Of a DNA stretch of 64,000 nt, positions 47,700-64,000 are shown in pieces. The stretch is from assembly GCF_024139115.2 (NCBI RefSeq), contig NC_085141.1, positions 165,498,908-165,562,907 on the forward strand, in the 5' to 3' direction. The DNA is from Armigeres subalbatus. Taxonomy: Eukaryota > Arthropoda > Insecta > Diptera > Culicidae. The notes under the pieces were generated by a model. That model ran no database searches. It was not told the DNA's origin and saw only the letters and a list, made by a program, of their open reading frames with translations. A program made the translations under genes and the position numbers. Numbering within the stretch: position 1 is the first letter of the stretch; each line of letters begins with the position of its first letter.

Positions 47700-48182
47700 T
47701 TTACATCTAAGCAGATAACACTGAATCAACAATTTGACGCCACACGGTGTGAGGCCGCATCTCTCCATCCTTGAATGCGCCCCACGCTCGCCAAATCGTT
47801 TTGCACCTGGCCTGCCCACCTCACTCGCTGTGCTCCAAGCCGTCTCGTACCTGCCAGATCGGAAGTGAACACCATCTGTGCAGGGTTGCTGTCCGGCATT
47901 CTTGCAACATGCCCTGCGCATCGCACTCTTCCGGCTTTAGCTACCTTCTGGGTACTGGGTTCGCCGTAGAGCTGGGCGAGCTCGTGGTTCATTCTTCGCC
48001 GCCACACACCGTCTTCTTGCACACCGCCAAAGATGGTCCTAAGCACCCTACCGGTCTACCGGTCTTATCAGCGTCTTGTACATGACACATTTGGTGCGGT
48101 GGTGAATCTTTGACTTTCACAGATGATGGGTCTATACTGTCGTATGCGCCTTGAAATCAATGAACAGATGGTGCGTTGGGAC
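47700..48182 (-). pseudogene. LINE family 3, 3' portion (downstream of the LTR element)
   Basis: This is the minus-strand continuation of the LINE at 54112-55362. Directly beyond the LTR duplication it reads into a THHLFIDFKA-like segment, then an internal deletion removes the catalytic RT core. The C-terminal region follows: LRTIFGGVQEDGVWRRRMNH, GRVRCAGHVARMPDSNPA, GAQRVRW. It ends near 47700 with a TGTAAAAAATGAATG-type end. Confidence 0.85.
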
Positions 48183-48302
48183 TGTAAGGATTCGCTCGTA
48201 CAATTAAAAGACGTCCTTTCAGATCCGGTGCAAAAGTCAAAGTGTTTTATTACGCATATAAAAGTCTACTACGATCGTCTACATATATTACAGCCTACTA
48301 CA
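48183..48302 (-). repeat. 3' LTR (in element orientation)
   Basis: On the minus strand it starts TGTAGTAGG and ends CTTACA. It has a TATA-like TTTTATATG and the polyadenylation-type AATAAA in GCGTAATAAAACAC. Just upstream is a purine-rich tract, AAAGGAGAGA, the expected plus-strand primer. Confidence 0.95.
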
Positions 48303-48360
48303 TCTCTCCTTTACGACATTTTAATAGTTAAACACAATTTAACAAAATTATCTGTTTACA

Positions 48361-49085
48361 TTAATTCATACGCTTGCATTTATAAAGAACATAATCTTTC
48401 AAGTATTCTGGTTTCCGATTCTTCCGACTACATCGATTCTCTCGAGTACACATTTGCTTCTGATCCGATACTTCATGTTCTTGTGGTATTGGTTTTGGGT
48501 TGGATTTTGAATTCAAAATATCGTCGATAGGGGCTGTAAATCTTTGTGATTGTTCAAATGGGTTGCTGCATATTAACAGTTTTGTGTGATTTACATGTCT
48601 GTCGGACCTTACACCGGTATCCATATTTTCCAATGTAAGGCGTGTTCCTTCTCTCTTCAAAACAACATGAGGTTGTGGATGAAAATTTGTAGTTAACTTA
48701 TTACGTTTGATGAAATTTTTTACAATTACATGATCTCCGACATCAATTTTTGAATACTTGGCATTTCTCTTATGATCCGCGTACTTCTTTCCTTTCTCCT
48801 TTCTTGAAAAATCTAGTTCTCTTACTGAATCGTTTCCTGCAGCGCTAACTATGTCTGGAAGTTTGTCTTTCAAATTTCGACCAAAAAGCAACTTGGCTGG
48901 AGTTTCGTTAGTAGTAGAATGGGGAGTGTTCCGGTATGCTAGAAGAAAATCTTGCAAGTCCGATTTCCAGTCACGGTTCATGGCAAAACTTATTTTTATT
49001 GTTTTAAGTAGTGTCCTGTTATATCGTTCTACCAGCCCATTTTGAAAAGGTGCATAAGGAATCGAATGTAAAATGATGATTCCAT
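48361..49085 (-). CDS. pol: Integrase core end and C-terminal domain
   Basis: The frame enters from the duplicated site with HSIPYAPFQNGLVERYNRTL, containing the third catalytic residue (Glu in NGLVERYN). It continues with ISFAMNRDWKSDLQDFLLAY, then the C-terminal domain (VGDHVIVKNFIKRN, YLKDYV near the end) and a stop at 48361-48363. The apparent start at 49101 lies in the retroposon and is not the true start. Confidence 0.9.
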
Positions 49086-49783
49086 TAGTGTGTATCTTCA
49101 ATCTAACCCCCGCTGTCCGGCAGTGGTATTATGGAAGAAAGCTGTCTTTAATAAAGTCAGCTTTAGCCCGGGAGTTAGAAGGTGTTAGCTCTACTGCAGC
49201 TCCAGTGACCCATTTCAGACTGCCTGGTAACTCACGTCCAGTCCGAGGTCACTTTCACTTGCAATAAGCCCCGCCTGTTTATGTTACCATTATCAATTGG
49301 ATAATAGATCCATAAACAAACTTCCGGATTGTTAAATCCAGCGCGAATTTGGTTTTGGAATCATATTAAAACAAATTGAAACAATCTCACCAAATTGATC
49401 CAATTCCGTACAAATGAACTGAGGAAGAGCAGATTACAACGAGTATCCACGAACAAACCACTACTCTTCCAGCGCTATTCCGACTTCCGAGCAACTCTTT
49501 ATTGATCCATATTTTCCTGGTATTTTCACAAATTCATACATGTTTTCACCAAATTCATCCCCGTATTCAAACTACACAAACGATTTCGCGCACTCAAATA
49601 AGAATACACTTGTGAAAAAGTCACCAAACTCGTAAATCTCAAACTTCAGATAACTTAAACTTTTTTCTTCTAGTACATATGCAAAAAATACACATCAGCC
49701 GAATCTTTTTCTTGCGGAAACGAACAAAAACCGTGACAGCAAATTTAAAAGCAACCATCCGCGCGCATGGCTTGCTGCGATCA
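49086..49783 (-). mobile_element. CA-tailed retroposon, copy 2 (within integrase)
   Basis: The 16-bp duplication AAAATGATGATTCCAT lies at 49070-49085 and 49784-49799. It is 698 bases, same orientation as the Ty3 element. The 5' end reads GATCGCAGCAAGCCATGCG, and the 3' end has a short CA-rich end (ATACACACTA). The 3' ~300 bases closely match 10800-11100. No recognised protein. Confidence 0.75.
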
Positions 49784-49914
49784 AAAATGATGATTCCATG
49801 AGTAGTACAAAATTCAGAGAATTCTTCAGATGGGAACGGTGGTCCATTGTCACACACTAACTCTTCTGGATATCCAAACCGTGCAAATATTATGCGTAAC
49901 TTATAAATAGTAGC
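49784..49914 (-). CDS. pol: Integrase core, segment before the nested insertion
   Basis: It carries FARFGYPEELVCDNGPPF (second catalytic Asp, in the DNG motif) and EEFSEFCTTHGI, then runs into the retroposon at 49783. The ATG at 49857 seen in this stretch belongs to an accidental frame that continues into the insertion. Confidence 0.85.
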
Positions 49915-50717
49915 TTTGCAGTTGTGGTAGTCATAACTTCTACTTCAGGATATCTGGAAAAATAATCGACGACTACCAACAAATGAATTCCATTAGTAAC
50001 TTCCATAAAGTCCAACGCTAATTTTACCCAGGGCTTGCTTGGCATACAAATGCGTGTTATAGGTTCCACACTTGGTTCAGATACCAGTTGACATCCTTTA
50101 CATGTTTTCACATATTGTTCGACCATGGTATCGATTCTAATCCACCAAACCTTTTCCCTGAGACGCCTTTTCATTGCTTGAATTCCCAAATGTGGTTCAT
50201 GAGCAAGTTGTAAAATTTTGATTTGTAGGCTTCTTGGGATTATAATTTTTCTATTTTTCAAAATTATTTCACCATTCGACGAAAGATCATTTACAATCAA
50301 TTTGTAGCGATTGAGAGTTTTTGGCCATCTCCTTGGTGGATATGGAATCCATTTCATCAGTTCTGTGAGTTCAATGTCTTTCTTTGTTGCGTCAATAATT
50401 TCCTGTAATGTGATAGCTATAGGCTTAATGTCATTAGATAATAATCGAATAATCCTTTCACATTCTTCATCATAACTTTCTGTACAGAGTGTCCCTTCCT
50501 GACATAATCGTGATAACGGATCTGCTATGTTGAATTTACCGGGCTTATATATCACACGGTAATCATATGACATTAATCTAAGCTTCCAACGTTCTATTCT
50601 TGCGCAAGGTTTGATTCTATCTCCAAATATTGTCACTAAAGGCTTGTGATCAGTGATCAACCAGAAGAACTTTCCATACAGGTAGAAATGGAACTTCTCT
50701 GGTGCCCAAACAACAGC
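49915..50717 (-). CDS. pol: RNase H end and integrase N-terminus and core
   Basis: LITDHKPLVTIFG and RWKLRLMSYDYRVIYKPG finish RNase H, and ADPLSRL marks the linker. The integrase zinc-binding HHCC module follows (HEPHLGIQAMKRRL..., YVKTCKGCQ). The catalytic core starts with LALDFMEV and LVVVDYFSRYPEV. A one-base loss near 49915 shifts the frame before FARFGYPEELVCDNG. Confidence 0.9.
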
Positions 50718-50721
50718 AACA

Positions 50722-51255
50722 GAAAGCTTCACGTTCTGTCTGTGCATATCTTCGTTCAATTTCAGATAATGTCTTGGAAGCATACGCGATTATTTTTACA
50801 ATACCATCTTCATTTTTCTGAAATAATACTGCACCCAATCCTACTGGACTCGCATCGGTTACAACAAAAGTTTCCATGTTTGGATCAAAGAACGACAAGG
50901 TTTCATTGTTTGCTAGGGACGCTTTAAGTTTGTCGAAAGCTTCCTGGTGAACATTTGTCCATTTGAAATTTACACTCCTTTTTACTAATGCGTTCAGAGG
51001 GCTTGCTATGGTAGACAATTTCGGTATATGTGAATTTACGAATGTGACTAGTCCTAAGAAGCTTCTAACTTCTTCCGTCGTTTTTGGTTCACGGAACTTG
51101 GTAATAGCAGCAAGTTTCTCATCCGACACTTTTACACCCTGTGCAGATAAATGGTAACCAAGAAATTCTAGTGATGTGACACATTCTACGGTTTTCGCAT
51201 CGTTCAGAACAACATTGTATTCCTTCAAGCGATTTTTGACCAGTTCGGTTCTTAG
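50722..51255 (-). CDS. pol: RT thumb and RNase H start
   Basis: The frame continues with LEFLGYHLSAQGVKV, VRSFLGLVTFVN, then the RNase H start TFVVTDASPVGLGAVLF (first catalytic Asp) and ERRYAQTEREAF (the Glu-containing helix). A 4-base insertion (50718-50721) ends the frame. The downstream frame picks up exactly at AVVWAPEKFHFYLYG. Confidence 0.9.
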
Positions 51256-51316
51256 CTAGAAGGACATAAGTAATAGTAGTTAACTTCAAATATTTAACAT
51301 ATTTGAAGAAATATAC
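51256..51316 (-). other. Candidate intron D inside the RT domain (61 nt)
   Basis: Starts GTATATTTC and ends TTATGTCCTTCTAG, a good acceptor with a pyrimidine tract. It splits the conserved RT palm-to-thumb region. Reading through puts the downstream sequence out of frame, while precise removal gives ILK followed by LRTELVKNRLKEY, the expected thumb. This is the best-supported of the four because both flanks are conserved protein. Confidence 0.85.
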
Positions 51317-51858
51317 CTTGAGAATGTCTTCATTAGGTGCATGGATTAAAATGTCATCTATGAATATTATTATCCATGGAAAACCGGCCAAAATTGTTTC
51401 GATACATTTTTGAAATAATTCCGGGGCGGCAGATAAGCCAAACATGAGCCGTTTATATCGCATTAATCCGAGCGGCGATATGAAAGTTGTAATATATCGA
51501 CAATCCTCTCGAAGCAAAAGTTGGTGAAATGCTTGTTTTATATCAAATTTGGAAAAAACATGGCTTCCTTTCAGCCGGCAAATCATTTGTTCGAATGTGG
51601 GCAATGGATGAACTTCTCGAATGATTGCCTTATTTGCTTCACGCAAATCTATAATAATTCGAACTTCTGTAGCACTTTTACGTTTGACAATCATGGGAGA
51701 TACCCATTCCGATGCTTCAAACACATGTTCAATTATGTCAAGATCTTCTAATTCTTTTAGTTTCAGTAATGTTAGCTCCTCTAGAGGAATTGGAATTCGT
51801 CGATATGATTGTCTGACTGGTGGTATAGACTTATCTATTTTTATCGAAGCACACATAT
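51317..51858 (-). CDS. pol: Reverse transcriptase, first part
   Basis: Ty3 RT blocks appear in order: PPVRQSYRRIPIPLE, EWVSPMIVK, RIIIDLREANKAI, HPLPTFEQM, FSKFDIKQAFHQL (first catalytic Asp), RYKRLMFGLSAAPE and the active site IIIFIDDILIHA with the two adjacent aspartates. The frame is fully open. It ends at the donor EDILK|, where the next candidate intron begins. Confidence 0.95.
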
Positions 51859-51922
51859 CTGGGTATTTTAATTAAACTATGCATTATACACGTCATATAA
51901 AGTTAAACAATACTAAATTTAC
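51859..51922 (-). other. Candidate intron C between protease and RT (64 nt)
   Basis: Starts GTAAATTTAG and ends TTAAAATACCCAG. Without splicing the frame stops after KGKFSIV. With it, ATC-AAA-G|AT-ATG joins in frame and the RT N-terminus follows at once. Confidence 0.75.
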
Positions 51923-52622
51923 CTTTGATGCAGGTCACCTCAGGAGTGAGCGTACGTAGGAACTTCACTATGCCTAGTTTTTCAGCTGTTTTTCCAGAGA
52001 GCAGCGAGCACCTGCCGTCCTTGATGACAAAAAACGTGCTAACACAGGATGCTCCGTCAATCGAAACTTCCATTTCTGCCTCTCCAAGCACCGTTAAAGG
52101 AGTTGTTGAACCATATGCCCGGAAAATTTTATCACTACCTTTCTTGATGGAGTACGCTCTGAAACCTAAGCGTTTCAATGTAGTCCAATCGTCCGTGCTC
52201 AATACGTCTTCGTCCGCTCCGGTGTCGATAATAAAGCGAAGAGTGACTCCACCGACATCAGCCATCACCGTTCGTTTGCCATCTAGATGGAATAATTCTC
52301 GAATCTCCACATTTTTGGTAACATCGTCGATCTCACGTACGAATTTCGGTTTCCTATCCGTATTCTGGTGTATTCCGTTGGCCACAGTTTTTACGTTGCT
52401 GAACCGGTGCTTTCGATTGTCTCTGCAACAACGTGCGAAGTGCCCAATTTTGTTGCACTTATTGCAGCGAGAGGTTTTAGCGGGACAATGCTGATCGTTT
52501 GATATATGGTTCCCAAGACATCTGGTACACTTCGTGCTTGGTTTCTTGTTTTGATTGTTGGACATTTTATTGAAGGTGTTTAATTCGGCTGAAACATTTG
52601 ATTTCCCACGGAACTCTTGAAC
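51923..52622 (-). CDS. gag-pro: gag nucleocapsid and protease
   Basis: Two CCHC-type zinc knuckles occur in order (CTRCLGNHISNDQHC and CNKCNKIGHFARCC), then a spacer and the retroviral-type aspartic protease with LRFIIDTGADEDVLS. The protease flap and end follow (EMEVSIDGASC, SLLSGKTAEKLGI). An ATG at 52565 lies inside, but the coding similarity continues upstream of it through the proposed splice. The protease would cut the polyprotein. Confidence 0.9.
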
Positions 52623-52698
52623 CTTAATAACAATAGAAATATATATTTTTTTTTTTACAAAGAATTCCCTTTTTTTATGTTTTTTTTTAAGTTAATAC
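52623..52698 (-). other. Candidate intron B in gag (76 nt)
   Basis: Starts GTATTAACTT and ends TTGTTATTAAG. It is rich in A and T, and its in-frame reading hits a stop after VLT. Removing it joins CAG|GTT in frame, so that ESVNKQ is followed by VQEFRGKSN and then the nucleocapsid. Length is not a multiple of 3. Confidence 0.7.
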
Positions 52699-53214
52699 CT
52701 GCTTGTTTACTGATTCATACGTCCTTCCGATGTTCAACATATCATCGAGGGAAGTATCAGCTTCGAGATACTTTGCTCTCAATTTATCATCAGTTGTAGC
52801 AAATATTATTTGATCCATGATCATATTCTCACTTTGGTCTCCAAAGTTACACAGCTCTGCTTGGGCCCGTAAGCGAATAAGGAATTGATCAAGCTTCTCG
52901 TTGGGGTTGAATTGGAGTTGTCTGAATTTGAATCGCTCGTACCGCAGTGACATACGAGGTGAATAGTAATTATCGAGCGCCTCTATTGTTACACGATACG
53001 GATTGTCCATCACAGTACTTTCATCCATCGACACTGTTTTGCCTATTTTCCGGACATCTGCACCTCCGAAACACATGAGGGCTTTATACATCTCATTATG
53101 GTCCTCAACTCCTTTCAATGAAAGATATGCTGTGAACTGATCCTTCCATTCTTCCCATCGAGAGCTTGTCGATCCATCACCGATCTCAACAAATGGCGAT
53201 ATGTTGAAACTCAG
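52699..53214 (-). CDS. gag: gag body (capsid region)
   Basis: The frame opens at the acceptor and stays open to the next donor. It carries the Ty3 gag core features RWEEWKDQFTAYL, CFGGADVRK, MSLRYERFKFRQLQ and LDQFLIRLRAQAELCNFGD, characteristic of the capsid of mag-type elements. It forms the particle in which reverse transcription occurs. Left alone it would end at a stop just inside the following candidate intron. Confidence 0.9.
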
Positions 53215-53290
53215 CTACGAAAATTGATTCATTAATGCATGAAACCACTTTTACATAAACAAATATGTATATTATTTTAGGAATATCGAC
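53215..53290 (-). other. Candidate intron A in gag (76 nt)
   Basis: Starts GTCGATATTCC and ends TTTTCGTAG. It contains in-frame stops. Removing it joins the short upstream ATG exon to LSFNISPF-type gag sequence in frame. A downstream start codon in gag is the alternative. Confidence 0.4.
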
Positions 53291-53312
53291 TTGTTGATTG
53301 ATTTGGACTCAT
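53291..53312 (-). CDS. Candidate first gag exon
   Basis: An ATG at 53312-53310 begins a short frame, MSPNQST, that would stop a few codons later unless spliced. Skipping 53215-53290 connects it in frame to the gag body. This is the weakest of the proposed junctions because the donor (ACAA|GTCGAT) is poor. Confidence 0.4.
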
Positions 53313-53986
53313 TTTAAATTTCAAAAATATTTCTTGGGTATCCATGACAACAGTTTTCTGTGAAAGGATATTATTTATCCCTTTTTTCCAAACTGAGATT
53401 ATTCATGATAATCTCCGTGATTCTTTCCGCGATTCCGCTGTCATCAGAATTTGCAACTCATAATGGACTGGAAGCACTGGCAGTGTTCCCTACATTTTAT
53501 ACTTTTATTTATTTTTTTTCAGTAGACTGAGTTACCTAACTCCTATACTTATTAGAATGGACTGGAGCCACTCGTAGTGCTCCCTTCATTTTCCTCAGAA
53601 ATTATACTGAATTTCTGAATCATTTCATTACATGCTTTAATGGGCTGGGATTACTCGAAGCATCCCCTACATTTCAGCATTCAATACTCAAAATTTCTGA
53701 ATTTCCAACTACGTTACGGAATTCTTTAATGATCTATTTTTTTCCTTAGAATATTGTTAATAAAGCAATAGAAGTCATTAAGTTGACAATCAATCAACTT
53801 CCGATCTCGTAAAAAATAGAGATATTTATTTTATTATCTTCGACATTTTAATAATTTTTTTTTCCTATATTGTAATTTGTTGCTTCAAGTTTACTTCTGT
53901 TTCGCTAAGGATAACTTGAAAATTTACTCCACGCTGATCCTCACGAAAAAAATTTCCCTCCCCGGTCCGTTTCGGCTCGTCGCCAC

Positions 53987-54106
53987 TGTAAGGATTCGCT
54001 CGTACAATTAAAAGACGTCCTCTCAGATCCGGTGCAAAAGTCAAAGTGATTTATTACGCATATAAAAGTCTACTACGATCATCTACATATATTACAGCCT
54101 ACTACA
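53987..54106 (-). repeat. 5' LTR (in element orientation)
   Basis: 120 bases, ~97% identical to 48183-48302. Immediately inside it (53965-53986), the minus strand reads GTGGCGACGAGCCGAAAC. This is a primer-binding-site-like sequence starting with TGG, as expected for pairing with a tRNA CCA end. The tRNA is not identified. Confidence 0.95.
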
Positions 54107-54111
54107 GGGAC

Positions 54112-55362
54112 CTGGTATTCACGGAATTTTTGAAGGATTTACCGTACAGTAAAGATCTGGTCCGTTGTCGAGCGGCCGTCAACGAAGCCGACTTGATAAC
54201 TTCCCACGAACTCATTCACTAATTGTGACAGACGACGGAAGATGATCTGGGATATCTCTTTGTAGGCGGCATTAAGGATGGCGATCGCTTGAAAGTTCTC
54301 ACACTCCAGAAAGAAAGAAAGGCGACATTCTTGTAGATGGGGCATATAACCCCTTCCTCCCACTCCTCCGGTAGCTGTTCAGTTTACCAGATTCTGACTA
54401 TCAGTTTGTGCAGGCAAGTGACTAGCTTTTCCGGGCCCATCTTGATAAGCTCTGCTTCGATACCATCTTTACCTACTTTATTGGTCTTTAGCTATTGGAT
54501 AGCTTCCTTAACTTCCTTCAAGGTGGGGGCTGGTTGGCTTCCATCGTCCGCTGAACTGACGTAGCCATTTCTTCCGCTGCCTTGACTTTCATTGCCTGTA
54601 GTCTCAGCGCCATTCAAATGTTCCTTGTAGTGCTGTTTCCATCTTTCGATCACCACACGTTCGTCCGTCAAGATGCTCCCATCATTATCCCTGCAAATTT
54701 CGGCTCGCGGCATGAATCCTTTGCGGGATGCGTTGAGCTTCTGCGTGTTCCTGGAACAGTTGTTCCTTCTTCTCGCACTCCGCTTTTTCCAGGCGGAAAA
54801 GGCGGATCTGCTGTCTTCGCTTCCGTCTATAGCGTTCCACGTTCTGCCGGGTACCTTGTTCCAGCACGACCGCCCGCGCAGGCGTCTTTTTCCTCCAAAA
54901 TCTGTCTGCACTCTTCGTCGAACCAATCGTTCCGTCAACTTCGTCCCACAATCCCGACGTTGTTCTCCGCTGGGTCGTTAATGGCTCCTTGACTGTATTC
55001 CAGCAGTCCTCAAGAGGGGCCCCATCGAGCTCATCCTCTTCCAGCGACGCTGCCTCGAGATGTTGCGCGTATGCAGTGTCGACATCAGGTTGCTTCAGTC
55101 GCTCTAGGTCGTACCGCGGCTGTCGTCGGTACCGAACATTGTTGATGACGAATAGTTTTGGGCGCAGTTTAACCATCACCAGATAGTGGTCAAAGTCGAT
55201 GTTAGCGCCACGATATGTCCTGACGTCGATAATGTCGGAGAAGTGCCGTCCATCAATCATAACGTGGTCGATTTGTGATTCTGTCTGTGGTAGTGATCTC
55301 CAGGTGTACGGTGTACCGATACGGGAGGTTGTGTTGGAAGTAGGTTATTCTTGGAGGCGGCT
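54112..55362 (-). pseudogene. LINE family 3, 5' portion (upstream of the LTR element)
   Basis: On the minus strand: the endonuclease C-terminus (ESQIDHVMIDGRHFSD), the linker with DGTIGSTKSADRFW and RQNVERYRRKRRQQIRLF, LTDERVVIERWKQHYKEHLN and the RT start (LVNEFVGSYQVGF, DGRSTTDQIFTVR). Several frameshifts lie between 54363 and 54938. It is cut at 54111 by the LTR element and continues at 48182. Confidence 0.9.
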
Positions 55363-58330: not shown

Positions 58331-58560
58331 ATTAAAAAAAAGTTACACATTGTGCATTAGCGGGTCAAAAATGGCCCCAAAATGAAATCGCTCCCAAAAG
58401 TTCATTTTCAAACCGATTCTCAATCTTTTGGAACCAAATTGAAGGTATGGATTCCACGGATGTCATTACGGACAGATTTTTGCACTTTGGCCATTCTGGT
58501 TCCCAGGAATCGATGTTGAAGGAACATAGATTCTTAGGCCAATTTTTGGCGTGATTTCTT
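58331..58560. other. Left flank of the satellite palindrome
   Basis: No gene. GTGCATTA is repeated at ~58329 and ~58354. This may be the outer end of the inverted structure, whose counterpart would lie beyond the window. Confidence 0.35.
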
Positions 58561-59990
58561 GCCTATCGAAGGGTGATTTTGGAAATGCTCATTAATTTGC
58601 GTAGCAATAATCCTAATAGAATGTAGCCATTGTCCATTTCCATGGATCAACACAATTCCTGATTATTTCACGGTCCAGTGTCCATCCGGAAGACCCGGAA
58701 CATCCGTAGAAGTGATCAATTCATTGAACTCATCCTAGAAGAGCGCAGTTTTCACAAAGCTTTTGATTATCGTAATTTGAGTAACAAATGATTGTGGTGA
58801 CCCATTTTGGAGGAACTGGGTGGCCACCGGAGGTCCTCCGGAAGATCCGGAACATCCGTAAAAATGGTCATTTCATAAAACTTATCATAGAAGAGCGCGG
58901 TTTTTTCCAAAGCATTTCCTTATAGTACTGTGAGTAACAAATGATTGTGGTGACCTATTTTGGTGGACCTGGGTGGCCACCGGAGGTCCTCAGGAAGATC
59001 CGGAACGTCCGTAAAAATGGTCAATTCATGAAACTTATCATAAAGGAGCGCGGTTTTTTTTATAAAGCTTTTCATTATCGATCTTTGAGTAACAAATGAT
59101 TGTGGTGACCTAATTTGATGGATCTAAGTGGCCACCGGAGGTCTTCCAGAAGATCCGGAACGTCCATAAAAGTCAATTATCAAACACATCATAGAAGAAC
59201 ACGGTTTTATCCAAAGCTTTTCTTTATAGTACTTCGAGTAACAAATGATTGTGGTGACCCATTTTGGAGGAACTGGGTGGCCACCGGAGGTCCTCCGGAA
59301 GATCCGGAACATCCGTAAAAATGGTCATTTCATAAAACTTATCATAGAAGAGCGCGGTTTTTTCCAAAGCATTTCCTTATAGTACTTTGAGTAACAAATG
59401 ATTGTGGTGACCTATTTTGGTGGACTTGGGTGGCCACCGGAGGTCCTCAGGAAGATCCGGAACGTCCGTAAAAATGGTCAATTCTTGAAACTTATCATAA
59501 AGGAGCGCGGTTTTTTTTCTAAAGCTTTTTATTATCGATCTTTGAGTAACAAATGATTGTGGTGACCTAATTTGATGGATCTAAGTGGCCACCGGAGGTC
59601 TTCCAGTAGATCCGAAACGTCCGTAAAAGTCAATTATCAAACACACCATAGAAGAGCGCGTTTTTTTCCAAAGCTTTTCATTATCGAACTTTGAGTAACA
59701 ATTGTGGTGACCCATTCTGAACGACCTGTGTGGCCACCGAAGGTCCTTCAGAAGATCCGGAACGTCCGTAAAAGTGGTCAATTTATGAAACTTATCATAG
59801 AAGGGCGCGGATTTTGACCTATTTTGGTGGAACTGGGTGGCCACCGGAGGTGCTCCAGAAGATCCGGATCGTCCGTAGAAGTGGTTAATTCATGAAACTC
59901 ATGCTAGAAAATTGCGTTTTTTATTGTCGAACGCTGGCCATTTTGATAGACCTGAAACAAACGCTGAGTAACAAATGATTATGATTAATT
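58551..59990 (+). repeat. Satellite arm, plus orientation, with three-monomer higher-order units
   Basis: Tandem ~153-base monomers start ACAAATGATTGTGGTGACC at 58784, 58937, 59092, 59241, 59394, 59549 and 59698. The spacings are 153, 155, 149, 153, 155, 149. The first and fourth, second and fifth, and third and sixth monomers are nearly identical, giving two copies of a 457-base higher-order unit. Each monomer has CGGAGGTCCTCCGGAAGATC and GATCCGGAAC-TCCGTAAAA. No credible gene is present. Confidence 0.9.
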
Positions 59991-60046
59991 GCATATTATT
60001 CGGCAACTCGGTCGTACGAAAACCATTTTTTTGTTAAATATCTTGG

Positions 60047-60330
60047 GGCTCTCCTTAGCCGTGCGGTAAGACGCGCGGCTACAAAGCAAGACCATGCTGA
60101 GGGTGGCTGGGTTCGATTCCCGGTGCCGGTCTAGACAATTTTCGGATTGGAAATTGTCTCGGCTTCCCTGGTCATAAAAGTATCATCGTGCTAGCCTCAT
60201 GATATACGAATGCAAAAATGGTGACCTGGCTTAGAAACCTCGCAGTTAATAACTGTGGAAGTGCTTAATGAACACTAAGCTGCGAGGCGGCTCTGTCCCA
60301 GTGTGGGGATGTAATGCCAATAAGAAGAAG
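60047..60330 (+). repeat. Near-complete tRNA-headed SINE (Feilai-type), 7-bp TSD
   Basis: ATCTTGG is duplicated at 60040-60046 and 60331-60337. The 284-base unit carries an A-box-like TAGCCGTGCGGTAAGACG, the B box GGTTCGATTCCCGG and an AATAAGAAGAAG tail. It lies in the loop of the satellite palindrome. Confidence 0.9.
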
Positions 60331-60403
60331 ATCTTGGCTGTGCATATGCACATCACATGTTTCGAAATGGACAAATTGATATGAAATTTGCGTAAAAGAA
60401 TCC

Positions 60404-60478
60404 ACGTGTCTTGGGGGGACTCGAACCCTCATTCTCCTACTCTCTAGATAGGCGTGATAACTCCTACACAACAAGACC
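60404..60478 (-). repeat. tRNA-like SINE head
   Basis: On the minus strand GTCTTG pairs with CAAGAC. An anticodon-like stem CCTAT/GTAGG surrounds a loop with AGA, and the T arm contains GGGTTCGAGTCCCC. D-arm pairing is weak. It is more like a SINE head (compare 2788-2960) than a serine tRNA, which would have a long variable arm. Confidence 0.45.
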
Positions 60479-60479
60479 A

Positions 60480-62239
60480 CTTAAAGGTCACGTTTGCGTA
60501 AAAGCCATCAGAATCTGAGTACCAACCTCCACCGCGGTTAGCTCTTTTTTTGCAAATTGAATATCTTTCGGATGCTTGATTTGTCCAATATCCACATGTG
60601 CTTTACTGTTGTATATCCACAGTCAAGCGAGTGCAAGTTGTTTATTAAACGAAAGGATCGCACTATAGCCCCCAACAACGGGCTGGGCGGATTGTATAGA
60701 GTGCAAATCAATCACACAAATGGTTATGGTGACCCCGTGTGATAGACCTGAACGGCCACCGGAGGTCCTCCAGTATATCCGTAAAAGAGGTCAATTCATG
60801 AAACTCATCATAAAAGAGCACAGTTCCTTCCTAGCTCTTCATTGTCGTACTCTGAATAATAAAATATCCCATAAAGTGGTCAATTTTTGAACAGTCAGCG
60901 GGGTCTTCCAGAAGATTCGGAGCATCCACAAAAGTTATCAATTAAAAAAAAATCATCCCAGAAAACAGTATGTAAAAAAATCTTTCTATTATCGAACTCT
61001 GAGCAAGACACGAAGGAATGTCGTGACCCGTTCTTATTTACCAAAGTAACTATCGGAGGTCTTACGGAAGATACGGAACATCGGTTTAAGTGGTTAATTG
61101 ATGTAATACATACTAGAAGAGCCTATTTTTTCCTTGTCGTACTCTGAACATGAAATTATTGCCGTAAACTTTTCTCACGGATGTGAGTAGCAACCAAAGG
61201 CCCTCCGGAAGATCCGTATCACACGTAAAAGTGATCAATTCATAAAACCCACCTTAGAAAAACACGCCATATAAGAGATGATGAAGCACACGATTCTTCT
61301 AAACCTTTTTATTTTCCTAATTTTAGAAACAAATGATCGTAACCAATTCGCATGGATTGCCCATTGTATGTCTTCAAGTACATTCAGATCATCCGTAAAA
61401 TCGGTCAATTCATGAAACTATTGTCATAGTTTTCCTATTTTCGTATCCTGAGTCATTATGATCGTTGTAACCTATTCTCAGGAACGTGTGTAGTCACCAA
61501 TGAAGCTCCGCAAGATCAAAAAATCTGTAATTAGAGTCAATTTATAAAAATTGTGGTGACATCAATTTTTTATTTTTTTTTTGAAAGGACGATCACAATA
61601 ACCCAGAAAATATTTTCAAGTATGGTTAAATTTGCTTCCATGAATCGATTAGTCATAAATCATCGACTCATGAAAGTTTGACTTAAAATAAAAATTTACT
61701 TTGGTTGAATCTTTTGACTACTTTTGGTCAAAAATTTCTTGCAAGATGATGGATCATAAAAAACCTATCTTATAATTTTAAATTTTTATTAATAGGGAGT
61801 CTATAATGGCAGCAAAAAGGTTCAACTATGATAAAAAGAGCACCTGAAATTTTCATAAATTTTTAGGGTGACAATATCAGGTCAAAAATGTGATAAAATC
61901 GTGTCGAAAACGAGAGAAAATCGAGGGTAGACAAAATCGCGAAGTGACAAAACCGGGTCGATACTGTATTATTAGGCTAACATGATGAAACTTTTATGCC
62001 CAGGGAAGTCGAGAAAATTTCCAACTTAAAAATTTCCTTGACCGGACCAGGAATCGAACCCCGCCACCCTCAGCATGATCTTGCTTTGTAGTCGCGAATC
62101 TTACCGCACGGGAAAGGGGGCCCCCGCAGAAAGCATCACTACAACCTTCATGAGATGATCAATAAGTAGAATAACAAACACTTTCAAAAGATCGTGTTCT
62201 AGTAGGATAAGTATTAAGTGTTGACCAATCCGTAGGAAC
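60480..62239. repeat. Central region of the palindrome with decayed monomers
   Basis: Decayed relatives of the satellite monomer appear at ~60715-60870, 60890-61010, 61030-61150 and 61170-61290 in plus orientation. 61560-61970 is AT-rich without a match. No transposase-like frame was found. Confidence 0.6.
61965..62126 (-). repeat. Truncated tRNA-headed SINE (Feilai-type)
   Basis: GGCTAACATGATGAAACTTTTA, GGGAAGTCGAGA, the B-box complement GGAATCGAACCC and CTTACCGCACGG-AAAGGGGGC lie in minus orientation. The 3' body beyond the GGCTAAC block is missing. Confidence 0.75.
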
Positions 62240-64000
62240 TTTAGGAGGACATCCAGTGATCACTTAAGTCATGTATATGGATCACGAGAGGGCCTTCACT
62301 GACCATTTAAGTCCATAACTGAGGGTCACGACAAAAATGTCTTACTCAGATTGCGATAATAGATTTTTTGTAAAACCATGCTCCTATGATTCGAGATTCG
62401 TTAGTTTGCAGCTTTTAGGAATATTGTGGGCATTATTCATAAAGGAGTGACCGCTCAGGTCCATAAGAATGGGTAACGATAATTTTCTATAACTCAGAGA
62501 ATGTTAATGAAAAGCTTTGGAAAAGCCTTCTATGGTGAGTTGCATAGAATGAACATTTCTACGGATGTTCCGGATCTTAGAAAGGACCTCTGGTGGCCAC
62601 TCAAGTACATTTACACGTTCTTTTGTTACTCAGAGTAGCTTTGTAAAAATTGCACTCCTCCATGATGAGTTACCCAGGGCCTTCAAAAAGGGTCTTCATA
62701 ATCATGTATTACTCAGCGTTCGGTGATTCAGCTATTCTATGGTGAGTTTTATGAATTGATCACTTTTACGGATGTTCCGGATCTTCTGGAGGACCTCCGG
62801 TGGCCACCCAGGTCCACCAAAATAGGTCCCCACAATCATTTGTTACTCAAGGTACTATAAGGAAAAGCTTTGGAAAAAACCGCACTCTTCTATGATGTGT
62901 TTCATAAATTGACCACTTTTACGGACGTTCCGAATCTTCTGGAGGACCTTCGGTGACCACACAGGTCCATCAAAATGGGTCACCACAACCATTTGTTATT
63001 CAAAGAACGATAATGAAAAGCTTTGTGAAAAAAACGCGCACTTCTAGGATAAGTTCCATGAATTGACCATTTTTACGGATGTTCCGGATCTTCTGGAGGA
63101 ACTCCGGTGGCCACTCAGGTCCATCACAATGGGTCACCATAATCATTTGTTACTCTTAGTTCGATAATAAAAAGCTTTGGAAAAAAACCGCGCTCTTCTA
63201 TGATAAGTTTTATGAAATTGACCATTTTTACGGACGTTCCGGATCTTCTGGAGGACCTTCGGTGACCACCCAGGTGCATCAAAATGGGTCACCACAATCA
63301 TTTGTTACTCGTAGTTCGATAATGAAAAGCTTTGGAAAAAACCGCGCTCTTCTATGATAAGTTTCATGAAATGACCATTTTTACGGACGTTCCGGATCTT
63401 CCAGAGGACCTCCGGTGGCCACCCAGGTCCACCAAAATAGGTCACCACAATCATTTGTTATTCAAAGTACGATAATGAAAAGCTTTGTGAAAAAAACGCG
63501 CACTTCTAGGATAAGTTCCATGAATTGACCATTTTTACGGATGTTCCGGATCTTCTGGAGGAACTCCGGTGGCCAGTCAGGTCCATCACAATGGGTTACC
63601 ATAATCATTTGTTACTCTTAGTTCGATAATAAAAAGCTTTGGAAAAAAACCGCGCTCTTCTATGATAAGTTTCATAAATTGATTATTTTTACGGATGTTC
63701 CGGATCTTCCGGAGGACCTCCGGTGGCCACCCAGGTCCACCAAAATGGGTGACTATAATCATTTGTTACTCAGCGTTCGATAATGAAAAGCTTTGGAAAA
63801 AACCGCGCTCTTCTAGGATGAGTTCAATGAATTGACCACTTCTACGGATGTTCCGGGTCTCCCGGAGGGACACTGGACCGTGAAATAATCAGGAATTGTA
63901 TTGATCCATGGAAATGGACAATGGCTACATTCTATTGGGATTATTGCTATGCAAATTTATGAGCATTTCCAAAATCACCCTTCGAAAGGCAAGAGATCAC
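62240..64000 (-). repeat. Satellite arm, minus orientation, runs off the window
   Basis: Monomers are inverted relative to 58551-59990, with TCATTTGTTA-starting units at about 62831, 62984, 63138, 63293, 63446, 63600 and 63754 (spacing 153-155). Units three apart are nearly identical (62984 with 63446; 63138 with 63600), giving a 462-base higher-order unit. 63840-64000 is the inverse of 58551-58720 (CACGGTCCAGTGTCC, GGATCAACACAATTCCTG), so the arms are mirror images. Confidence 0.9.

Follow-up and report, generated by a model that had tools for sequence, protein, structure and literature searches.

The 64,000-nucleotide (nt) stretch of Armigeres subalbatus contig NC_085141.1 analyzed here (the window) carries, on its minus strand, a degenerate copy of a retrotransposon whose gag and pol genes are interrupted by intron-like segments. 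The insertion (48183..54106) was recognized by a pair of long terminal repeats (LTRs), a primer-site-like stretch, a purine stretch, and a target duplication. The 5′ LTR (53987..54106, TGT...ACA) and the 3′ LTR (48183..48302, preceded by the purine stretch) are both 120 nt long and mismatched at 3 of 120 positions, and the 5-bp duplication GTCCC flanks both ends of the element (48178-48182 and 54107-54111). The primer-binding-site region, TGGCGACGAG... (53967..53985), starts one base past the 5′ LTR; this stretch recurs in other families of the element, and we take the region to match tRNA-Ser. With LTRs, a short target duplication, and the gene order gag, protease, reverse transcriptase (RT), RNase H, and integrase, the element is a Ty3-type LTR retrotransposon. 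The label ‘mag’ comes from an earlier note on this DNA.

Coding sequence is distributed over five exons, all on the minus strand. The first (53838..53846) consists of a start codon and two further codons (M-S-K) and was identified from the sequence and from the same mini-exon, followed by a GT donor, in the related copies L071-L073, L106, and L107. Intron 1 (53215..53837, 623 nt) has lost its donor dinucleotide in the window copy. Exon 2 (52699..53214) encodes the gag capsid region (Pfam PNMA, E = 3.4e-4, under the curated cut-off; matched in most loci read), and intron 2 (52623..52698, 76 nt, phase 0) lies within gag. Exon 3 (51923..52622) encodes the nucleocapsid, recognized by eye through its Cys/His motifs, and the protease (Asp_protease_2, E = 2.8e-4, under the cut-off). 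Intron 3 (51859..51922, 64 nt, phase 1) marks the protease/RT boundary. It is followed by exon 4 with the RT palm (51317..51858; RVT_1, E = 7.8e-17), intron 4 within the RT (51256..51316, 61 nt, phase 0), and exon 5 with the RT thumb, RNase H, and integrase (48361..51255; RT_RNaseH_2, RT_RNaseH, Integrase_H2C2, and, under the cut-off, rve_3). Besides the lost donor, the copy has two further lesions, a change of frame in RNase H and an insertion nested in the integrase (49070-49799). The latter is about 700 nt long and has a 16-bp duplication (49070-49085, 49784-49799), as from a non-LTR or SINE-type (short interspersed) element.

The earlier note had proposed that four short segments were exact introns of this element: 53215-53290, 52623-52698, 51859-51922, and 51256-51316. 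The segments are indeed present on the minus strand, each begins with GT and ends with AG, their lengths (76, 76, 64, and 61 nt) are all 1 mod 3 and hence not multiples of three, and their GC content is 0.14-0.25. The last three were confirmed to the base by copies of the window's family that are without exactly these stretches. For 53215-53290 the acceptor was right and the donor wrong, the intron being the 623-nt intron 1 behind a mini first exon. We rejected the 76-nt version: its donor, GTCGAT, is weak by eye, and the ATG preceding it, 22 nt upstream, fails to reach the gag frame because it stands in phase 1 and the gag frame starts in phase 0.

Related copies were sought in the same genome (1,335,692,571 bases in 2,076 contigs, three of them very large at 318.6, 465.0, and 430.1 Mb). 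Seventy were read around the RT exon, comprising 30 loci and 40 more picked for near-full query coverage. Copy numbers are lower bounds: 159 matches were listed, 150 of 5,605 candidates were scored, and some places of near-full coverage were left unread. Exons were searched singly in each locus, and intron losses were counted only in copies read. In a tree of the RT exon (70 rows), 39 rows (L001-L039, the clade) separated from 31 outgroup rows with support of 100/100, the root being that of the drawing only. Across ten family representatives (45 pairs), the RT exon was saturated at synonymous sites (proportion of synonymous differences, pS, 0.73-1.02) and conserved at nonsynonymous ones (pN 0.10-0.21). 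Synonymous saturation was equal in the other exons, with higher pN (0.10-0.51) in the pairs that allowed comparison. Because synonymous sites are saturated and the protein is conserved, the families appear far diverged under purifying selection, yet they retain introns 1 and 3. These comparisons indicate that the lineage has replicated long with its introns, and that introns 1 and 3, shared by families saturated at synonymous sites, are old. Recent intron gain, one of the explanations in the earlier note, is thereby contradicted for introns 1 and 3; it suits intron 2, which occurs in one family, and perhaps intron 4, which occurs in a subset.

Intron 3 is found in nearly the whole clade. An in-phase acceptor stands 1-3 nt upstream of the RT exon in 35/39 clade loci (in L024 and L026 it is the AG six bases upstream of the listed one), the exceptions being L025, L031, L032, and L037, the last of which no longer has the AG in phase. 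Upstream, at a distance of 56-102 nt, 33 of the 39 have a GT donor. In L009, L025, and L027 the donor is present and the intron holds additional sequence. At the same site the outgroup reads through: of its 31 loci, 29 could be evaluated, and 27 of these have an open frame with 24-54 additional in-frame nt, the other two (L053 and L068) having a stop.

Intron 4 occurs in 14 of the 39 clade loci (L001-L009, L011-L014, and L035), with the donor lost in L006 and an insertion inside the intron in L014. The remaining 25 have no intron-sized extra sequence at the site, which is damaged in L015 and L037. No extra sequence was seen there in any of 30 evaluable outgroup loci, and the frame is open in 28 of them and shifted in L041 and L055. 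Intron 4 may have a single origin followed by loss in family C, which groups with the intron-4 family D at 88/81 in the RT-exon tree, or it may have arisen more than once. Only copies of the window's family showed intron 2, which measures 76, 70, 67, 77, and 70 nt in L001-L004 and L006, respectively. Sister-family loci L005, L007-L010, L014, L015, and L018 have zero extra bases at its site, which reads CTCAG|GTTCAAG in L007 and L014, and the outer families show in-frame linker differences only. In one further copy of the window's family, L105, additional sequence lies inside intron 2. In family F, all four copies read (L103, L108-L110) carry, ahead of the RT motif VRII in the RT palm, an insert of 60 nt with GT...AG ends. 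It is a candidate for a fifth, lineage-specific intron or for a peptide insertion; its donor is weak, its length is divisible by three, and it is open in 3 of the 4.

Many related loci thus cross the sites of introns 2 and 4 with zero extra bases. Chance is ruled out, since the segments are present or absent at fixed positions across 70 copies. By their GT...AG ends at fixed positions, the interruption of the frame and, for introns 2, 3, and 4, exact removal in some copies, the segments have the characters of spliceosomal introns. Identical positions across genomic copies had been set beforehand as a check, and most copies and the sister families carry the segments at the same sites, the reverse of what the earlier note had named as its refuting case, namely other copies without them or with unrelated ones.

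The earlier note had also asked for intron-less copies, and a few exact absences were found that look as if spliced RNA had been reverse-transcribed into the genome. Searching the DNA with gag exon 2 as query returned, for the window's family, nine full copies at 98-100% identity and two partial copies at 95 and 90%. Eight of the nine full copies carry intron 2, L105 being read at the donor end alone, with other sequence after it. Intron 3 is present in 7 of the 8 full copies read, and intron 4 in 9 of the 10 copies read, including two finds of the RT-exon search (C1:11.21M and C1:182.49M). In copy C3:112.56M, introns 3 and 4 are exactly absent at the predicted sites (L098, L094) and intron 2 is present (L095). 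In copy C2:437.57M, intron 2 is exactly absent (L097) and introns 3 and 4 are present (L099, L100). The loss of intron 3 in C3:112.56M is secondary because nearly the whole clade carries this intron. Reverse transcription of partly spliced RNA would be the simplest cause of these exact absences. Indels that are not multiples of three separate the introns of the window-family copies from one another. Both partly spliced copies retain intron 1 with all three of the hairpins described below. Intron 1 was present in 8/8 window-family copies read there, L074 and L112 lacking the donor end.

The acceptor AG of intron 1 stands directly before conserved gag in 20 of 21 evaluable loci of L001-L030; it is degraded in L007, and nine loci are unreadable there. 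We read 19 5′ regions of other copies, 15 from one set plus L106, L107, L111, and L112. In 17 of them the acceptor is preceded, at a distance of 385-629 nt, by a first exon of 3-7 codons that ends in phase 0 at a GTA donor. The two misses, L074 and L112, have unrelated sequence at the place of the mini-exon, and in L075 the acceptor is degraded. The shortest intron 1 is that of L111 (family F; 385 nt, donor GTAAGT), and the 623 nt of the window copy fall within the range. The mini-exon encodes MSK in the window's family, MAT or MTT in its sisters, MSR in family F, and MAWPM (once two codons longer) in the outer families. All ten families examined at the 5′ region have intron 1 together with a mini-exon bearing the start codon. 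Among the intronless outgroup leaders, 4 of 8 start gag with an ordinary ATG a few codons before a PPF, APF, or PAF motif, with no intron; the start is unplaceable in the other four.

Intron 1 of the window copy contains three hairpins (53639..53673, 53556..53590, and 53462..53496, minus strand) of one design, in which a conserved asymmetric internal loop (NAG / [AG]G[CT]C) separates the outer from the inner stem. The design recurs in intron 1 of B, C, and D, all sister families. When the outer stem was omitted, the descriptor gave 29 matches in intron 1 of nine copies, 27 of them with all three outer pairs; dinucleotide shuffles gave 0 to 0.02 per copy. In a search of both strands of the window, the full descriptor matched four times in all, each time in intron 1 (the three hairpins and a stretch near 53542); gag-pol loci totaling 254 kb gave 11 matches, and the descriptor found none in eight outgroup regions. 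Over 13 distinct hairpins, 96.2% of cells were paired, and 7 of the 8 pairs showed changes on both sides, in 20 such cells. None of 500 shuffles was as high on those measures, and versions slid out of register had at most 4 both-side cells. The hairpin rows are related and the descriptor was written after viewing them, and the slid control therefore weighs most. Predicted RNA structure between the first donor and gag, as expected of a packaging signal removed by splicing, was found in families A-D; elsewhere the picture is mixed or different. In 53200-54125, Tandem Repeats Finder reported no array and Rfam no match at E≤1. By eye, the outer families (L081, L082) and family F (L111) contain other repeated hairpin-like motifs of different sequence, as though the array held its shape while its letters were replaced.

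Outside the element, an RT piece (54139-54378, minus strand; RVT_1, E = 1.5e-4, under the cut-off) immediately precedes the 5′ LTR, and an open reading frame past the 3′ LTR (47726-48055, minus strand) resembles, by eye, the tail of a long interspersed element (LINE), with no Pfam match. The LTR element thus appears to lie within or beside a LINE. Tandem arrays of a repeat of about 153-155 nt fill 58551-64000 in inverted orientation (58.6-61.4 kb versus 62.3-64.0 kb), the arms being up to 95% complementary. A comparison of gag with solved structures gave no match at E≤0.1, an IMG/VR scan gave nine pattern matches with no relative among them, and megablast against a plasmid collection gave no match.

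We think it rather probable that spliced RNA serves for protein synthesis in this lineage and that RNA retaining intron 1 is what is packaged and reverse-transcribed. One of the readings in the earlier note, that the segments are introns of a Ty3-type element whose genomic RNA is copied unspliced, is supported, the genomic copies deriving mostly from unspliced RNA. Its further suggestion of DNA-based spread is unneeded: the LTRs, target duplication, primer site, and partly spliced copies all indicate an RNA intermediate. With the start codon in the mini-exon before intron 1, unspliced RNA should give no complete Gag. Splicing would sort transcripts, the spliced ones serving as messenger and the unspliced as genome. 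Retroviral packaging signals lie downstream of the major splice donor, where removal by splicing would mark unspliced genomes. The hairpins of intron 1 may likewise form a genome tag past the first splice donor, acting as a packaging signal, an export element, or both. If they tag the RNA, only RNA that keeps intron 1 would be copied, which would explain why mostly all introns are retained, why introns 2 to 4 are occasionally lost, and why no loss of intron 1 was observed. Since most tagged RNA would be unspliced, introns 2 to 4 would persist, partial splicing removing them now and then, and intron 3 may also set the Gag:Pol ratio, as in Ogre. We infer both the splicing of intron 1 and its role as a tag; the remainder is read from the sequence. 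Taken as a whole, and tentatively, we propose an animal LTR retrotransposon lineage in which splicing could act as a sorting switch, RNA minus intron 1 being messenger and RNA with intron 1 being genome, an arrangement that would shelter old introns and admit new ones in gag and pol.

Several observations weigh against this proposal. Splicing is predicted here from genomic DNA. No copy without intron 1 was found among those read, so that its sites and phase are what speak for its splicing, and its retention in the partly spliced copies (2/2) amounts to very few cases. For C2:437.57M, the lack of intron 2 may be an ancestral state. Hairpins of this sequence do not occur throughout the clade, as the descriptor finds none in five outer-family introns, and one of the five covariation measures, further pair types, was not above shuffles (10 vs 11.0). 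A sequence-blind test of hairpin energy was clear (≤1/25 shuffles) for only five families out of 10, the exceptions being C, D, F, and two outer ones; among controls, 0/5 gag exons and 0/4 outgroup leaders reached that level. Folding of whole introns gave z = -4.3 to +0.2 over nine families. Finally, intron 1 could instead hold an insulator or promoter.

An alternative account does without any tag: splicing is real, and unspliced RNA is copied through host suppression in the germline or through inefficient splicing, intron 1 being retained by chance. In its favor, the introns are short and AT-rich with variable donors, just two partly spliced copies are at hand, and the energy test is mixed. 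We nevertheless regard this account as unlikely, given that compensatory hairpins are concentrated in intron 1 and that intron 1 with its start-codon mini-exon was present in every one of the ten families read at the 5′ region. The introns might also chiefly set protein ratios, retention of intron 3 giving Gag-protease and its splicing Gag-Pol, with introns 2 and 4 as mildly costly hitchhikers and intron 1 as a leader intron for translation or export. The position of intron 3 at the protease/RT boundary, with an in-phase acceptor in 35/39 clade loci, speaks for this, as it is the position of the Ogre intron (PMC6317226; this and the other papers are cited for the portions of their text available to us). 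On its own, it leaves an intron before nearly all of gag, and the hairpins in that intron, unexplained, and we judge it quite improbable as the chief role; it is compatible with sorting by intron 1 rather than exclusive of it.

Tandem repeats near the 5′ end of an LTR element can be DNA elements, as in the gypsy insulator. The repeats of intron 1 might similarly act as DNA, in an insulator or protein-binding array, with the introns retained for unrelated reasons, and three Culex Mag elements do have tandem repeats in a ‘5′ UTR’ (untranslated region; PMC3286476). Here, however, the loop length varies widely, both stems covary, and the asymmetric internal loop is kept, a combination that fits RNA better than a DNA site and makes this explanation very improbable in our estimate. 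The window copy is broken elsewhere, and its segments could on that ground be taken for chance insertions or assembly artefacts in one dead copy. This is refuted by the same positions in many copies and families and by copies from which the segments are exactly missing where predicted.

That Ty elements move via RNA was classically proved by the loss of an engineered intron (PMC12786077). The present lineage needs an explanation because its introns were kept over a span in which synonymous sites saturate, though passage through RNA should erase them. The material has built-in controls: outgroups that read through the sites, introns nested within the clade, and close copies missing single introns to the base. 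It bears on how an LTR element splits messenger from genome RNA and, through intron 2, seen only in the window's family while the empty site survives in the sisters, on the origin of new spliceosomal introns. If our proposal is true, the lineage would document, in nature, how introns come and go in an element that is copied through RNA every generation.

In the open-access literature we found no report of an animal element of Ty3 type whose introns are distributed over gag and pol. In mosquitoes, the Mag elements of a Culex survey form two subgroups, one of them with five Aedes aegypti reference elements. Their primer sites are for tRNA-Ser or Leu, in one case Arg; three of the elements carry tandem repeats in the 5′ region; each element has 1-3 open reading frames; and the accessible text makes no mention of introns inside the elements (PMC3286476). 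Penelope-like elements likewise keep spliceosomal introns, which can survive retrotransposition, and their authors suggest an antisense template (PMC3846280); they belong to a different class of retroelement. Among LTR elements, EVADE and Ogre have been named as intron-containing exceptions (PMC12786077). Ogre, a plant Ty3/gypsy element, has its intron between protease and RT, the same place as intron 3 here (PMC6317226). We do not claim membership in Ogre, although the in-phase acceptor in 35/39 clade loci agrees with the intron position of Ogre-type expression. In Ogre the protease/RT intron is the only one described in the portion of text cited, in contrast to up to four introns here, one of them before nearly all of gag and two in parts of the clade, together with natural retro-spliced copies. 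In BARE, RNA pools are separated by splicing, capping, and polyadenylation, and only non-polyadenylated RNA of the unspliced class is packaged (PMC3735527). The unspliced RNA of BARE1 and copia (Ty1/copia) and of EVADE holds an open polyprotein frame, and splicing favors Gag alone, whereas the unspliced RNA of the present element is predicted to be without a complete Gag. Cer1, a Ty3/gypsy element of C. elegans, comes close in that its genomic RNA keeps working splice sites and must exit the nucleus unspliced; its Gag and Pol are made from that unspliced RNA and splicing yields the accessory protein CERV (PMC10309623), whereas Gag is predicted to need splicing here. The same reversal separates our element from retroviruses, which translate Gag-Pol from unspliced RNA, whereas the Gag-Pol of this mosquito lineage is predicted to need splicing.

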